Notes under the pieces: generated by a model | Told to the model about the DNA's origin: nothing | Databases searched by the model: none | Seen by the model: only the letters and a program-made list of their open reading frames with translations | Part shown: piece by piece, positions 48,015 to 64,000 of the stretch | Position numbering within the stretch: position 1 is the stretch's first letter | Layout: every line of letters begins with the position of its first letter | Translations under genes and position numbers: made by a program | Assembly (NCBI RefSeq): GCF_014925405.1 | Contig: NZ_AQHJ01000035.1 | Span: 792,918 to 856,917 of the forward strand | Length of the DNA stretch: 64,000 nucleotides | Reading direction: 5' to 3' | From: Pseudoalteromonas ulvae UL12 | GTDB taxonomy: Bacteria; Pseudomonadota; Gammaproteobacteria; Enterobacterales; Alteromonadaceae

Positions 48015-48217
48015 AATATTAACATCTTATAATTAAGATTATGTTAAATAAGCTATTATTTAAAACTAGCATGATAAAGTCCCTGCTAATTTAAATCTCG
48101 CCTGCATTTTTATGATCATCTTTGCAGTGTATTAACAGTTTTATATATAAATTTATGTCCAATACTAGACAGTATCGGACTTTAAGCGGATAATAGTAAT
48201 AAATTCAGTTGATTATT

Positions 48218-59271: not shown

Positions 59272-60018
59272 CTAAATACCAATTATTTGTACCTTAGAGT
59301 CATTTAAAGTATTAATAGAGCCCTCAGGCAAGGAAAATACCCGCATTAAAGTATCTTTTTTAATAGTTGAAGCATCAGTTACTACAGTGTGTATAGCCCC
59401 TTTATTCATGATTATTGCACTTTGATTGCAATTTAGTGCTAAGTTAAGTTCATGATGACATATTATGATGCAGTGATCCGCAGCCTGTTGTTTTAAATAA
59501 TGATTTAACCAGTATTTATGTTTTACATCTAATCCTGTGTATGGCTCATCAAATAAAAGTAACTGAGGTGAGTGCGAGTCTATATTAAGTAAAACGCGCG
59601 CTAGATGTGCCCTTTGTTGCTCTCCGCCAGATAAATTGCAAATCTTTTTATCCAGTAATGGGAGTAAATCAAGGCCCGCTAAAATTATATGATTTGTTTT
59701 AGACTGTATATTTAAATCATTGTGCGCGATAAAAAGCATTTCTTTTACAGACAGAGAAAAATGAATGTCTTGTTGCTGAGTCAAATAACGTCTTAATTGA
59801 CTGATATTAATAGTATTGAACAAAGTGACAGGCTCTTCACTAATGCTGATTATGCCTTTTTTAGCCGGAATTAAGCCTGATATAATATCTAACAGAGTCG
59901 TTTTACCTGAACCATTAGGGCCTAATAAGTGGTAAAACCCAGTGGACAATGTCAAAGAGATTGGACCTATTTTAAAGTCACGATTTATTGTGTATTCAAC
60001 TTGTTCAATATTAAGCAT
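59272..60018 (-). CDS. ABC transporter ATP-binding protein, BtuD/FecE type
   Basis: Walker A LLGPNGSGKTTLLD, signature LSGGEQQRAHLARVL, Walker B LLLFDEPYTGLD and switch IICHHELN are all intact. The start at 60018 (MLNIEQVEYTI) overlaps the end of the permease gene by 8 bp; the open frame to 60138 would only extend into that gene. About 248 residues. With the FecCD-type permease it makes the cytoplasmic-membrane core of a B12 or siderophore importer. No periplasmic binding protein or matching receptor is next to it. Confidence 0.88.
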   Translation of the reverse strand: MLNIEQVEYTINRDFKIGPISLTLSTGFYHLLGPNGSGKTTLLDIISGLIPAKKGIISISEEPVTLFNTINISQLRRYLTQQQDIHFSLSVKEMLFIAHNDLNIQSKTNHIILAGLDLLPLLDKKICNLSGGEQQRAHLARVLLNIDSHSPQLLLFDEPYTGLDVKHKYWLNHYLKQQAADHCIIICHHELNLALNCNQSAIIMNKGAIHTVVTDASTIKKDTLMRVFSLPEGSINTLNDSKVQIIGI

Positions 60019-61000
60019 AGCCTGCTCTATTTTTGAAATTTGAGAATAATACGCCGAGGAAGATGGGTCCGCCAATACATGTGGTGATAAGAGAAATTGG
60101 CAATTGATAAATTGTAAGCGTTCTTGATAACCACTCAATTAACAGCATAATCATAGCGCCATTAACAATTAATAAAGGAACAAGTCGTTTGTTACTGTGC
60201 CCAAATATCAATCGTGTCGCGTGAGGGACGAGTAAACCGATAAAGGTAATCATGCCTCCAAGCGTCACTGCACATGCCGTTAAAATACTGGCTAATATTA
60301 AGTTATTGCGACGACATTTAAGAGTGTTGAGGCCATATAAGCGCGCATTTTTATCACCTAAATAGATAAGATCAAGATGGTGACGTTTCGAAACTATATA
60401 CGTTGTAATTAATACTACAAAAATACCGACTAAACAAAGCAGCGAATAATTTACGTGTTCAAAACTTCCTAGCATCCACATACTAAATTGTCGCAATTGT
60501 TCATTATTAGAGTAATAAATTATCCAACTGATCACTGCTGATGCCATTGTCGTGATACATATTCCACTTAAGATCAATGACGAGCCTGAATAATTCCCTA
60601 ATCTCTTCGCTATCTTAAAAACACTGAATAAAGCAAAAGCACTGCCTATGCAGCCAAATAAAAACAAAAAGAACACATCATACTTAAAGTTGTAATAAGT
60701 GAAAACCGCAGCACCGAGTATTATAAATAAAGAACATAAGCTACTCACCCCTAATAAGCTCGGTTCTGCTAAAGGGTTACTCAGTAATAATTGGTACAAA
60801 TGTCCGGCAATACTTAGTGAGATCCCTACTAAAATTGCGGTGATTATTTTTGGTAGGCGTAGTTCTAAAACTATCGTTTTTTCTAGTTCACTCATCTCAA
60901 AAATTGAGATAGTTGGAATGTGAAGACCTCCGTTAAAAGCGGCCAAATATAGAGTCAGACAAAACAAGAAGGTAAGTGAGTATATAGCCGTATTCTGCAA
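60011..61000 (-). CDS. FecCD-type ABC permease, possibly BtuC
   Basis: About ten TM helices. LRLPKIITAILVGISLSIAG and QLLLSNPLAEPSLLGVSS are the classic FecCD N-terminal signatures, and GGMITFIGLLVPHATRLIFG is the motif that contacts the ATPase. 329 residues. Vitamin B12 or ferric siderophore is the likely cargo; there is no cobalamin riboswitch or Fur-box-like sequence in the 190 bp upstream. One Ter-like 16-mer lies inside the gene (60669-60684) and another just upstream of it (61066-61081). Confidence 0.87.
   Translation of the reverse strand: MQNTAIYSLTFLFCLTLYLAAFNGGLHIPTISIFEMSELEKTIVLELRLPKIITAILVGISLSIAGHLYQLLLSNPLAEPSLLGVSSLCSLFIILGAAVFTYYNFKYDVFFLFLFGCIGSAFALFSVFKIAKRLGNYSGSSLILSGICITTMASAVISWIIYYSNNEQLRQFSMWMLGSFEHVNYSLLCLVGIFVVLITTYIVSKRHHLDLIYLGDKNARLYGLNTLKCRRNNLILASILTACAVTLGGMITFIGLLVPHATRLIFGHSNKRLVPLLIVNGAMIMLLIEWLSRTLTIYQLPISLITTCIGGPIFLGVLFSNFKNRAGYA
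60669..60684 (-). other. Ter-like site A (inside the permease gene)
   Basis: Minus strand reads AGTATGATGTGTTCTT, identical over 16 bases to sites B and C and similar to E. coli TerB (AGTATGTTGTAACTA). Bases equivalent to G6, G10 and G13 of E. coli Ter are kept. The AGTATG end faces right, so by analogy it would block forks moving leftwards. Confidence 0.68.
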
Positions 61001-61065
61001 TGCTTAATATCCATAAATAAATTTCGATGATTGTACCAAATACAATTAGATAAGATAGCCCAATT

Positions 61066-61081
61066 AAGAACACATCATACT
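61066..61081 (-). other. Ter-like site B (between btuC-like gene and tus)
   Basis: Minus strand AGTATGATGTGTTCTT, 16 of 16 identical with sites A and C. Same orientation as A. Lies in the divergent promoter region of the permease and tus genes. Confidence 0.72.
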
Positions 61082-61129
61082 TTTAATTTAATTAAGATAT
61101 ACTCAGCATCGAGAAAAAAATAAAAAAAG

Positions 61130-61157
61130 TAGACAAGTAAAATGCCTCAGGTAAGAT
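61130..61157 (+). promoter_or_regulatory. Probable promoter of tus
   Basis: TAGACA, 16-bp spacer, TAAGAT. It would start transcription near 61164, placing Ter-like site C within the first 30 transcribed bases. Confidence 0.45.
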
Positions 61158-61173
61158 ACAAATAAAATGATTT

Positions 61174-61189
61174 AGTATGATGTGTTCTT
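61174..61189 (+). other. Ter-like site C, abutting the tus start codon
   Basis: Plus strand AGTATGATGTGTTCTT, ending one base before the tus ATG (61190). Opposite in orientation to A and B, so it would block forks moving rightwards. It occupies the place of the ribosome-binding site, which suggests that Tus represses its own gene, as E. coli Tus does through TerB. Confidence 0.72.
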
Positions 61190-62059
61190 ATGGGTTACAA
61201 ATTTAACCTTCGTAGTCAATTTGATTCGATCATGTTGATGACCAATGAATTAATAGAAGAATTAAAACAATTAGAGTCACCGTATTGTAGCTTTTATCAC
61301 ATACCGCCAGTACTCACTAAAGATGAGCAAACAATCCGTAACGAAATTATTATTAAACCCTATTTCGCAGATCATGCTTTTAATCAATGCTGCCAATCTT
61401 TAACCCATGTTTATCGTGAACATGAACATAGCGGTCGTGTTTTGAATCGCTACCCAGGCATTATCGCTGTTAATACCCAGAATCCTAGCGACTTAATTAA
61501 TCGGATTAATCAGATAAACCAAGCCAAGCTTGCATTTAAAAATATGATTTTAAAGATTGGAAATAACGACTCTAGATTTGAAGCTGTTCATAATGCTATT
61601 CCTAATGTGTTAACGTTAGCGGTATATCGTCAAATCCACTTTGAACAAAATAAGCCCTTTTCTGTTCGCTTTACCTGGATGCACAAACACTCAATTAAAA
61701 CTTTTACTAAAGCTGAAGCCATTACGCTGTTAAAAAACTCTGAGAATTATGGCGTTACAAACAAAATTAATGCCGAAGCTTGGCGAGCGCTTGTTAATAA
61801 AGAGTTGCTTCGTGTGTCATCATTATCTGATAAAGAAAAACTGAGGATACGCAGGCCTACTCCGGTTAGTCCTCAAGTTAATGTCAGGTTTGATGCAAAA
61901 AATAGGTATCACGTCAGTGCTGCGTTACCATTTATTTTAATCAATCCGAGCGAAGATGTTAAATTAGGCCATTTAACGGATTATTATAAAAAGGAAACAG
62001 ATCCAAGGACAATCAAACGAGAGAGCTTAGTTGAACGATTATTCTTACAACGCTATTAA
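61190..62059 (+). CDS. tus: Replication terminus site-binding protein (Tus homologue)
   Basis: DNA-bound polar barrier to the replicative helicase. 289 residues against ~309 in E. coli Tus, and collinear with it. SRFEAVHNAIPNVLTLAVYR (residues 128-147) matches the E. coli segment RFEWVHRHLPG...LNAYR. Phe130 and His134 fall at E. coli Phe140 and His144, the residues that trap the flipped cytosine in the locked complex; the Gly149 equivalent is Asn. FSVRFTWMHKHSIKTFTKAE and KLRIRRPTPVSP match LRFGWANKHIIKN and KLKIKRPVKVQP. The ATG at 61190 aligns with the E. coli N-terminus but has no ribosome-binding site; a Ter-like site occupies that spot. It is encoded next to the replication initiator. 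Confidence 0.88.
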   Translation: MGYKFNLRSQFDSIMLMTNELIEELKQLESPYCSFYHIPPVLTKDEQTIRNEIIIKPYFADHAFNQCCQSLTHVYREHEHSGRVLNRYPGIIAVNTQNPSDLINRINQINQAKLAFKNMILKIGNNDSRFEAVHNAIPNVLTLAVYRQIHFEQNKPFSVRFTWMHKHSIKTFTKAEAITLLKNSENYGVTNKINAEAWRALVNKELLRVSSLSDKEKLRIRRPTPVSPQVNVRFDAKNRYHVSAALPFILINPSEDVKLGHLTDYYKKETDPRTIKRESLVERLFLQRY

Positions 62060-62061
62060 CG

Positions 62062-62097
62062 AAAAAAGCAGTAATTATGTTAAATTACTGCTTTTTT
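62062..62097. terminator. Bidirectional terminator between tus and the initiator gene
   Basis: AAAAAAGCAGTAATT / AATTACTGCTTTTTT, a 15-bp perfect stem with an ATGTTA loop; convergent genes on both sides. Confidence 0.93.
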
Positions 62098-62116
62098 ACA
62101 CGATACAAACAATAGC

Positions 62117-63331
62117 TTACTTAGAAACAATTTCGTCTAACTGATCACCATCAATAGTAAGCGCCTCTTCTACAATACGTTTACCGCTTTGAATTTCTAA
62201 ACGTTTATTTTGCTTGTTTAGAGTCAGTATTTCTTCACAAAACTGATCAGATGGGTGCATTTCATAAGTGTAATCAATAATAATACCTGTTTTATCATCT
62301 TTAACATTTACAATCGTGTAATCTGATATCACACCCTTGTTGATTAAATCTTTCATTGTAGTCGTCATATCACGGCGAAGTGCTTTTAACTTATTCTCTG
62401 TAATTTCATCATTCGCGTATATCGAACCATATTTTTCCATAATAGAAAGTAAACGGAAATGATGAGTCTTACCTGGTGCCGCATATCGCCATAAGTGATA
62501 AAGACGAAGCATCATCCAACGGGATAAACCGCGTTTTAATTCTTGTGCTCGATTAAAGTAATAACCTTTATAATCTAAATTATCGATCATGTTATGAACA
62601 AATGCATTTAAGCACGCCACACATTTGACATTCCCGCCTTGGCCTTTTTTACCACTAAAGTGTAACGAAGATAAAAAATTCATATTTGATTCGTAAAATG
62701 AATCATCTACATTCGTATTTTTTGTATCGGTGGCAGAGTATTTGAATGAAAGCTTAGAACCTTGCAATGCTTCAAGAGATTCTTTTATTTGTGGAAAAGG
62801 CATCGACTGACCAACACCTTTCAGTTCTTGTGCTAACTCATTCATCGAAAAAACAACAGCGTATTGGATACCCGACTTAAAATTGATTTTTACAATTTTA
62901 CCTTTTGATGCCAAACGGATTAACGCCCTTTCTACTTTTTCTTCTCGATCAGAAGGCCAAACTAAAAACTCTCGTTCTTCGCCATCTTCGCGGGAGCTTA
63001 CAACCGCAGGAGTAATTTTTATTTCACCGTCGTATTGTATGCCGTCAATTTTTTCAGAAATTCGTCTTGTTACAATTGTTCTTTTCGGTGCTTCTTCTAC
63101 AGGCAACTTCTTATGTCCAGATCGGACGAACCGACCCCATAAATCATAATGATTAAATGTATTTGAATAAGCACGTAACGCGTGGCTAGAATTTTCAATT
63201 GGAACTCTGACATCTTTATTATCAGTAAATAGCGCTAGGCTTTCATTATCATTGGCGCTTTCTACACCATGAATTTGGCCCCTTAGCGTATCTGGAAGAT
63301 TCTCAACTGAAATCTTAACCTTGCTCGACAT
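62117..63331 (-). CDS. rep: Plasmid-type replication initiator protein (probable chromid Rep)
   Basis: 404 residues with the two-winged-helix layout of plasmid RepA/RepB initiators. The N-terminal WH (~residues 120-240) contains WPSDREEKVERALIRLASKG and MNELAQELKGVGQSMPFPQI. The C-terminal WH (~260-370) contains FNRAQELKRGLSRWMMLRLY, then LSIMEKYGSIY and ALRRDMTTTMKDLINKGVIS, which fits an iteron-binding helix-turn-helix. Between 63332 and 64000 are ten 19-bp repeats, presumably its binding sites. It is not RctB (658 residues, different sequence). It is read leftwards, away from the origin and towards tus. Confidence 0.82.
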   Translation of the reverse strand: MSSKVKISVENLPDTLRGQIHGVESANDNESLALFTDNKDVRVPIENSSHALRAYSNTFNHYDLWGRFVRSGHKKLPVEEAPKRTIVTRRISEKIDGIQYDGEIKITPAVVSSREDGEEREFLVWPSDREEKVERALIRLASKGKIVKINFKSGIQYAVVFSMNELAQELKGVGQSMPFPQIKESLEALQGSKLSFKYSATDTKNTNVDDSFYESNMNFLSSLHFSGKKGQGGNVKCVACLNAFVHNMIDNLDYKGYYFNRAQELKRGLSRWMMLRLYHLWRYAAPGKTHHFRLLSIMEKYGSIYANDEITENKLKALRRDMTTTMKDLINKGVISDYTIVNVKDDKTGIIIDYTYEMHPSDQFCEEILTLNKQNKRLEIQSGKRIVEEALTIDGDQLDEIVSK

Positions 63332-63400
63332 TGTTTTTTCCGTATAGTTTTTTATGACGAGTTATAACAACACATTCTCATCAAAAAGTTAATTATTAAA

Positions 63401-63929
63401 GTTAGTATAAAAGTGATCTGTCATTAAAAAAGATCATAGATCAACTGTATACTAAGTTAATTATGCAAAGATGATTTAATAGCTACTGAGATCAATATTT
63501 AACTAAGGTCACGTTTTCAGATCACTTTTTTACTAAGTTATTGCTCTTTTTTACAAGCGAAAAGCCTTATTAGGCAGATAAACGTACCTAATTTAATTAT
63601 TTTTAGTACTTGAGTTAGTATTATGATGATCCAAATAAGTCTATTTGGGTCATTTAAGATTAGTACTGTGCATAACCGAACATCATCTTAGTACAGATCA
63701 GATCTTAGCTAAGTAAAGATCTGATCTTAATGTACATAAATGCTTCAAAAGGATTAAGATCCAATCAACTTAACTCTATTTAGTAAGTAACATATTGATC
63801 CAAAGTACTGAATAGATGAATAACGACCTGCACAACCTGTACATAAACTGTGATTAAAAAAAATAGTTAGTATAAAGTTGATCTACGAGTTATTAAGAAT
63901 CAGATCTTAACCAAGTAAAATCCTGATCC
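63401..63929. repeat. Ten 19-bp iterons
   Basis: Pattern roughly [GC]T-A-GT-A-----TGATC[TC]. Plus strand at 63401, 63614, 63709, 63783, 63866 and 63911. Minus strand at 63438-63456, 63489-63507, 63519-63537 and 63695-63713. Best copies: GTTAGTATAAAGTTGATCT (63866), GTTAGTATAAAAGTGATCT (63401) and, inverted, CTTAGTATACAGTTGATCT (63438-63456). Every copy carries GATC at the same place near its 3' end. Two copies overlap head-on at 63709-63713. Confidence 0.75.
63667..63675 (-). promoter_or_regulatory. DnaA box
   Basis: TGTGCATAA, the complement of TTATGCACA, a perfect match to the DnaA consensus TTATNCACA, in the middle of the iteron array. Confidence 0.65.
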
Positions 63930-64000
63930 AACATTTTATTATTTATTGTTATTTTTCAAAAGATTAAGTTAATATATTTAGTCCTTAACCTTTATTACCT

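Follow-up and report, generated by a model that had tools for sequence, protein, structure and literature searches.

How can a replicon of chromosome size be copied effectively in one direction, with its terminus close to its origin? The question is raised by a tus gene near the end of a 64,000-nucleotide stretch of Pseudoalteromonas ulvae UL12 DNA (contig NZ_AQHJ01000035.1, positions 792,918 to 856,917, forward strand; the whole stretch is called the window here, and its first letter is position 1). The gene encodes a predicted Ter-binding fork-arrest protein of 289 amino acids (61190–62059, plus strand). Its neighbour is repA, the predicted gene of the chromid replication initiator (62117–63331, minus strand, 404 amino acids), beyond which lies the origin region, ori2. 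That tus stands beside ori2 in this genus has been described (PMC6549158), and one-way chromid replication, which the initial annotation of this DNA had mentioned, is indeed in print, by read depth for P. tunicata (PMC7858055) and also for P. translucida TAC125 (PMC13342612). When Xie et al. (2021; PMC7858055) searched with the E. coli consensus, no ter turned up around the place where one was expected, and they left open both the cause of the one-way mode and the choice between one and two forks. A ter in the tus promoter was proposed as speculation in 2021 (PMC8347550), and a review of 2023 marks the Pseudoalteromonas Ter by a question mark (PMC10331603); the suggestion of the initial annotation that Tus is the cause is largely supported, but it was already in print in this speculative form. 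A Ter sequence for Pseudoalteromonas was not found in the passages and sections of the literature that were searched.

A candidate answer is a 16-mer, AGTATGATGTGTTCTT, of which the window holds three mismatch-free copies, none of them farther than 0.6 kb from the start of tus. The outer copy (60669–60684, minus strand) is predicted to block leftward forks. The inner one (61066–61081, minus strand) is intergenic, has counterparts in a like layout in relatives, and is the predicted first stop for a leftward fork from ori2. The third (61174–61189, plus strand) abuts the start codon of tus, which it probably represses, and is predicted to block a rightward fork after a full round. From left to right the order is (−), (−), (+), tus, repA, ori2, with the sites about 2.1–2.7 kb from the repA start. 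The putative barrier and the origin lie within 3 kb of each other, as the initial annotation had it, with the candidate Ter sites 2–3 kb from ori2; it named no Ter site, though the start coordinate it gave, 60669, is that of the first. The barrier it placed at tus would reside in these sites and not in the location of the gene, while its proposal of one-way replication by a Tus barrier gains from them, since their number, polarity and position are those needed.

The polarity of the sites was calibrated on TerA, TerC and TerB of E. coli MG1655. There, TerA (−) lies to the left of dif and TerC and TerB (+) to the right, TerB preceding tus on the same strand. TerA halts counter-clockwise forks, and TerC and TerB halt clockwise ones. 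It follows from this layout and the known direction of arrest that a plus site should stop rightward and a minus site leftward forks. Given E. coli polarity, the three sites in the window form a candidate two-way trap 2–3 kb from the origin, with an opposed Ter pair beside the origin as in a trap of the R1 type. The 16-mer has 10 of 17 bases in common with E. coli TerB, the shared part being AGTATG-TGT; the second half of the E. coli word is replaced. We think it very likely that this Tus-Ter trap beside ori2 makes replication of the chromid effectively one-way and puts the terminus near the origin.

The word recurs throughout the genus. Its positions were taken from a listing through genome G026, from 26 genomes, from 30 loci and from 73 named loci, sets which overlap and are not summed. 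The 73 named tus loci (74 were fetched and L138, lacking a tus match, was dropped) were scanned between 10 kb before and 1.5 kb after the tus start, or to the end of the available sequence, several contigs ending near tus. They gave 158 matches with at most one mismatch (reversed control, 0) and 234 with at most two (control, 1); of the latter, those lying upstream of tus by over 200 bp comprised 103 minus and 0 plus sites. A 10-mer count blind to the motif ranked the same word first over 63 loci, with at least two copies in 48 and at least one in 61. Among the first 30 loci of relatives, 29 had at least three copies (up to three mismatches) in the geometry of the window, and the other one, at a contig end, had two. 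With a degenerate word and at most one mismatch, 2–11 matches were found per genome in 108/108 genomes, against 0–2 with the reversed control. As a control outside Pseudoalteromonas, 104 of 279 genomes of the family had a match with at most one mismatch; those listed all carried one mismatch, none being perfect.

Blocking (−) sites were present at tus in 71 of the 73 named loci, and within 2.5 kb upstream of it in 31 of 33 few-contig or own-genome chromids, a count read by eye and not scripted. Where at least 2.5 kb of upstream sequence was at hand (62 loci), two minus sites occurred in 43, three to six in 16, one in 1 and none in 2. Many loci had a plus copy no more than about 30 bp from the start of tus. 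Genome G103, whose RepA is 100% identical to a protein named as from P. tunicata, has (−), (−), (+) at tus. The core of the motif, GTAWGATGTGTTC, is almost invariant, and the G at motif position 2, which would be the partner of the flipped C6 in the lock, is conserved in 97% of the minus and 100% of the plus sites, figures to which selection at two or fewer mismatches contributes by favouring conservation.

In UL12 the outer site falls within an open reading frame (ORF) for a FecCD-type transporter (60011–61000), where it encodes KYDVFF. In relatives the outer site lies at many different distances from tus, which suggests from sequence comparison that its presence is conserved, not its place.

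The identity of the protein proved as the initial annotation had proposed. Against the Pfam family PF05472 (Ter) the window Tus scored 233.7 bits, with a cut-off of 22, over profile positions 2–295 of 296, and the E. coli Tus structure 1ecr matched it with an E-value of 1.7e-20. Phe130 and His134, which had been placed at the cytosine-trap positions, align with Phe140 and His144 of E. coli Tus, which we take to be the cytosine-pocket residues; their equivalents are identical in 80 of 80 aligned Pseudoalteromonas Tus proteins. Where E. coli Tus has Ile79 and Gly149, the window Tus has Arg and Asn. The NCBIfam equivalog cut-offs were not reached (NF002810, 231.6 vs 323; TIGR02648, 95.3 vs 178.3), and the protein is assigned to PF05472 only, not to the NCBIfam Tus equivalogs. 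A PF05472 match was present in 107 of 108 Pseudoalteromonas genomes, the exception being a single contig of 3.6 Mb.

The Rep gene reported next to tus and the origin beyond it were likewise borne out. The two genes lie tail to tail with 57 bases between them, and the Rep protein, which is 97% identical to a protein labelled P. tunicata in its source, is by this homology the chromid initiator RepA of the genus; it had no Pfam or NCBIfam match above cut-off. Its predicted model (mean predicted local distance difference test score, pLDDT, 75.2) has its closest fold in RctB, followed by Pi and RepE. The Foldseek match to RctB (5tbf_A; E 1.4e-08; 12% identity) is a similarity of fold only. R1 RepA is not among the Foldseek/VIA matches listed for the model, which excludes nothing; a published statement has it that the chromid RepA is perhaps related to the R1 initiator.

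The putative ori2 region between repA and parA (63332–64000) is 73% A+T and holds repeats of 13–39 nt and 15 GATC, against a maximum of 8 in 627 overlapping segments of the same size elsewhere in the window. Origins of the RctB type have 12-mers and 39-mers, of which the GATC richness and a pair of 39-nt repeats in this region are reminiscent. The window is the final 64 kb of contig C34 (856,917 bp), whose end is window base 64000; should the contig be circular, ori2 would run on into its first 103 bases. Past the contig start follow ORFs that read as parA, parB, an SNF2-type helicase and an RmuC-like gene, labels that rest on a reading of the ORFs and on the gene cluster of PMC7858055. The contig looks, from its sequence, like a complete chromid opened at ori2. 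In two relatives repA and ori2 were found by experiment to be the minimal replicon (Xie et al., PMC7858055).

On chromosome 1, a convergent (−)/(+) pair of the same word surrounds the predicted dif1 in 27 of 32 genomes, with a median span of 55 kb (range 23–153 kb), and within 160 kb of dif1 the left sites are minus in 28 of 28 cases and the right sites plus in 30 of 30. Usually there is one site per side. This is the polarity rule of E. coli, with TerA (−), dif, then TerC and TerB (+). The count covers 32 of 34 genomes (G102 and G103, with no dif1 match, were left out) and uses one-mismatch listings, with the sites of G018, G055 and G107 taken from a looser pattern run on nine genomes; the positions of dif1, and of dif2 below, are pattern predictions. 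Of the two genomes left out, G102 has a (−)/(+) pair on chromosome 1 and G103 a minus site only. In UL12 itself the pair lies at C27:159413 (−) and 287417 (+), with one mismatch each, and dif1 at 174754. No site was found near dif1 in G044, G100 and G061, and sites on a single side only in G046 and G101; stray one-mismatch matches occur far from dif1 on chromosome 1 of several genomes. The 3.6-Mb genome without tus, which is probably chromosome 1 alone, keeps its dif1 pair. As tus is invariably borne on the chromid (PMC7858055), any action on chromosome 1 would be in trans, and the chromid-encoded Tus probably serves both replicons, to judge by the distribution of sites.

Two chromids, those of G044 (1,618,489 bp) and G100 (1,598,238 bp), have no minus sites at tus; no Ter word with up to four mismatches was found in the available DNA within 4 kb of the gene. 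Both carry a (−)/(+) pair around dif2, opposite ori2, at 825064/926044 around 862568 in G044 and at 737390/849850 around 819264 in G100. A third perfect site in G044, at 304186 and of minus type, would be crossed by the fork from ori2 in the permissive direction. For each of the two, GC skew was sampled in 20 stretches, and its sign switches at ori2 and again near dif2. On the UL12 chromid, 41 of 42 tiles have positive skew, as do two further stretches. The two chromids which lack sites at tus thus have them around dif2, together with a two-sided skew, and this supports the interpretation of the sites as the determinant. Their RepA proteins are 88% identical to that of the window, so that the type of initiator does not separate the modes of replication. 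Sites at tus are likewise missing from the draft genomes of Pseudoalteromonas sp. P1-9 and sp. G4, apart from a match with four mismatches that lies 3.6 kb upstream in G4, and the two drafts group with G044 and G100 (FastTree support 1.0). G044, G100, L111 and L113 form one clade, from which the Ter site in the tus promoter region, present in the window at 61174–61189, is absent. In their large size and in a dif2 opposite ori2, the chromids of G044 and G100 resemble those published for P. spongiae and its bidirectional relatives. It is also probable, though we hold it with less assurance than the trap at ori2, that the location of Ter sets the mode of replication, one-way at ori2 and two-way at dif2, and that the chromid Tus terminates chromosome 1 in trans.

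In G044 and G100, with their trap at dif2, there is no convergent pair near dif1, as if the trap of chromosome 1 had been lost when that of the chromid moved.

Tus, the sites, their polarity, the genus-wide pattern and the skew are read from sequence; binding, arrest, the two forks and causality are what we infer. In the proposed mechanism, RepA would open ori2 and two forks would start. The leftward fork would copy the 2–3 kb containing repA and tus, pass the plus site in the permissive direction and be stopped by Tus on the minus site at 61066–61081, with that at 60669–60684 as back-up. The rightward fork would copy the remainder of the 857-kb circle, pass both minus sites permissively, and then meet either the stalled fork or Tus on the plus site at 61174–61189. 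The chromid-encoded Tus would probably serve the two-site trap around dif1 as well. In the one clade, the chromid has its sites around dif2, opposite ori2, and a skew of the bidirectional pattern.

The number of forks is where another reading comes closest. ori2 might be intrinsically one-way, with RepA loading a single rightward fork which Tus-Ter merely stops after a full round, preventing over-replication; the stopping would then fall to the plus site before tus. However, sites oriented against a leftward fork on its way out of ori2 outnumber the rest (two in 43 and three to six in 16 of the 62 loci), and the RepA that is 88% identical accompanies a two-sided skew where the tus-side sites are missing. 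For these reasons we favour two forks, one of them blocked. The closeness of the RepA model to RctB, then to Pi and RepE, argues weakly in the same direction; RctB drives a bidirectional chromid. A single intrinsic fork therefore seems unlikely to us. Far less probable still is that the repeats are mere operators, for autoregulation of tus or as sites of another regulator, and have no part in fork arrest. The plus copy that many loci have about 30 bp or less from the start of tus, as with E. coli TerB, would suit an operator, but copies extend up to 8 kb upstream of tus and are always minus there, and dif1 is bracketed with fixed polarity at 58 of 58 sites. Moreover, G044 and G100 have no copies in the available DNA within 4 kb of tus and yet have the pair around dif2.

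A role for dif2 itself must also be weighed. Termination might be set there, by the meeting of forks or by processing linked to XerCD/FtsK, with Tus-Ter as a bystander. dif2 lies near ori2 in most chromids and opposite to it in bidirectional ones (PMC7858055, and the dif2 predictions made here), dif2 and Ter mostly move together, and two tiles of G061 at and beyond dif2 have negative skew. The two features come apart in G045 and G046, where the Ter cluster is at tus despite a dif2 some 125–150 kb away. The cumulative skew of these two chromids dips, but on balance it keeps climbing beyond dif2 and turns down close to the Ter cluster; the curves are noisy, and the outcome is as expected if Ter sets the terminus. 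We consider it highly improbable that dif2 decides the matter. In the window, a strict E. coli-like dif word had no match, and a looser word gave the dif2 candidate TATAATTAAGATTATGTTAAAT (48028–48049, plus strand; C34:840945–840966 of the assembly), about 15 kb from ori2.

Several findings weigh against a trap that sets the terminus as proposed. dif2 lies outside it, by 13 kb in the window and by the far larger distance just given in G045 and G046. The chromid of G045 has its trap at tus, yet 7 of 19 sampled tiles are negative, and skew is mixed in G061 (2 of 7 tiles negative, both at or beyond dif2) and in G076 (2 of 4). The one-clade grouping of G044, G100, L111 and L113 means that the contrast of unidirectional and bidirectional chromids represents a single evolutionary event. 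G061 has sites at tus and none near dif1, and UL12 has an uncounted two-mismatch minus match (C27:288104) to the right of dif1. No plus site with up to three mismatches was found at tus in 17 of the 73 loci, three of which (L117, L123 and L142) have less than 160 bp of upstream sequence. In the protein, the position of E. coli Arg198 is Asn in the window Tus; Arg is kept in 72 of 80, in a part of the alignment that contains gaps. To the right of ori2, plus-strand genes have a fourfold-site skew of −0.031 (323 ORFs) where a positive value was expected, and the local skew as a whole is ambiguous and does not settle one against two forks.

Whether local GC skew could reveal a short leftward fork was examined, and the approach was rejected: over all sites, the skew left of the trap is negative in 58 of 59 loci whether or not these carry Ter sites, so that gene direction dominates. 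Skew at fourfold sites was +0.225 for minus-strand (130 ORFs) and +0.088 for plus-strand genes (63 ORFs) of the left flank, and −0.137 for tus (71 ORFs). In the two loci without sites, minus-strand genes left of tus gave −0.168 (13 ORFs) and tus +0.032 (2 ORFs). The flip between left flank and tus is suggestive only.

A parallel to the proposed trap is found in plasmid R1, which relies on the Tus of its host. R1 has an opposed Ter pair beside its origin, terRL/terRR (Krabbe et al., 1997, cited in PMC10331603), and there, as is proposed for the chromid, one fork is blocked almost immediately and the other after a full round (PMC10331603). The chromid differs from it in being 0.86 Mb in size, in having its own Tus and a different Ter sequence, and in an initiator with a predicted fold like RctB/RepE. 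With the Tus-Ter system of E. coli it has in common the protein family, the polarity around dif and a Ter just before tus, whereas dif1 is usually flanked by one site per side and not by five and five (PMC10331603), and tus resides on another replicon than the trap of chromosome 1. The Type I traps of Edwardsiella and Dickeya (Toft et al., cited in PMC10331603) are alike in that a single Ter controlling tus blocks one fork; these ancestral traps lie in chromosomal termination areas, that of Pseudoalteromonas at the chromid origin. The model of Xie et al. (2021; PMC7858055) already has a one-way chromid with tus in the ori2 cluster, and of the two options it offers, one is that two forks start and one of them is blocked at ter2. 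What is added here are candidate sites with their polarity, including those on chromosome 1 and on two chromids with bidirectional skew. Sequence comparison largely supports a putative Tus-Ter trap close to the origin of a replicon the size of a chromosome; it would resemble the trap of R1, use a new Ter word and share its Tus with chromosome 1.

The Ter word makes the question of one-way replication testable by editing a few 16-bp sites, and the natural series from a trap at the origin to a trap at dif2 bears on how a replicon resembling a plasmid can turn into a chromosome that is copied both ways. The terminus of the main chromosome is predicted to be policed by a chromid-encoded protein. 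If this is true, the main chromosome depends on the chromid for replication termination, and Tus acting in trans would be one possible reason why both replicons stay together.

Around tus, a weak promoter-like site with 9 of 12 consensus bases precedes the gene (61130–61157, plus strand), such matches being no commoner in the region than in shuffled sequence. A perfect inverted repeat of 15 bp with a 6-nt loop lies between the convergent tus and repA (62062–62097) and is likely a two-way transcription terminator, though the terminator scan of the tus region did not report it. In G007, a tandem array of 182-bp units (11.2 copies by TRF) lies between tus and repA (L247 5548–8061; G007:C2:745548–748061). 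Each unit has a Ter-like core, all are minus, and the lock G is substituted in the copies shown; possibly Tus binds there but does not lock, or the array is what is left of a barrier that has decayed.

The UL12 genome also contains a second, distant Tus homologue (L002 1474–2403, on the 88,987-bp contig C19; PF05472, 109 bits), near which the genus Ter word was not found with up to three mismatches in the 3.9 kb searched. Second PF05472 matches occur in 11 of 106 other tus-bearing Pseudoalteromonas genomes, and these second homologues are probably mobile or plasmid-borne. At least ten Tus matches were present in other genera of the family, and 1373 of 72,556 plasmid records carry Tus homologues, chiefly from Klebsiella, Salmonella, Escherichia and Citrobacter.

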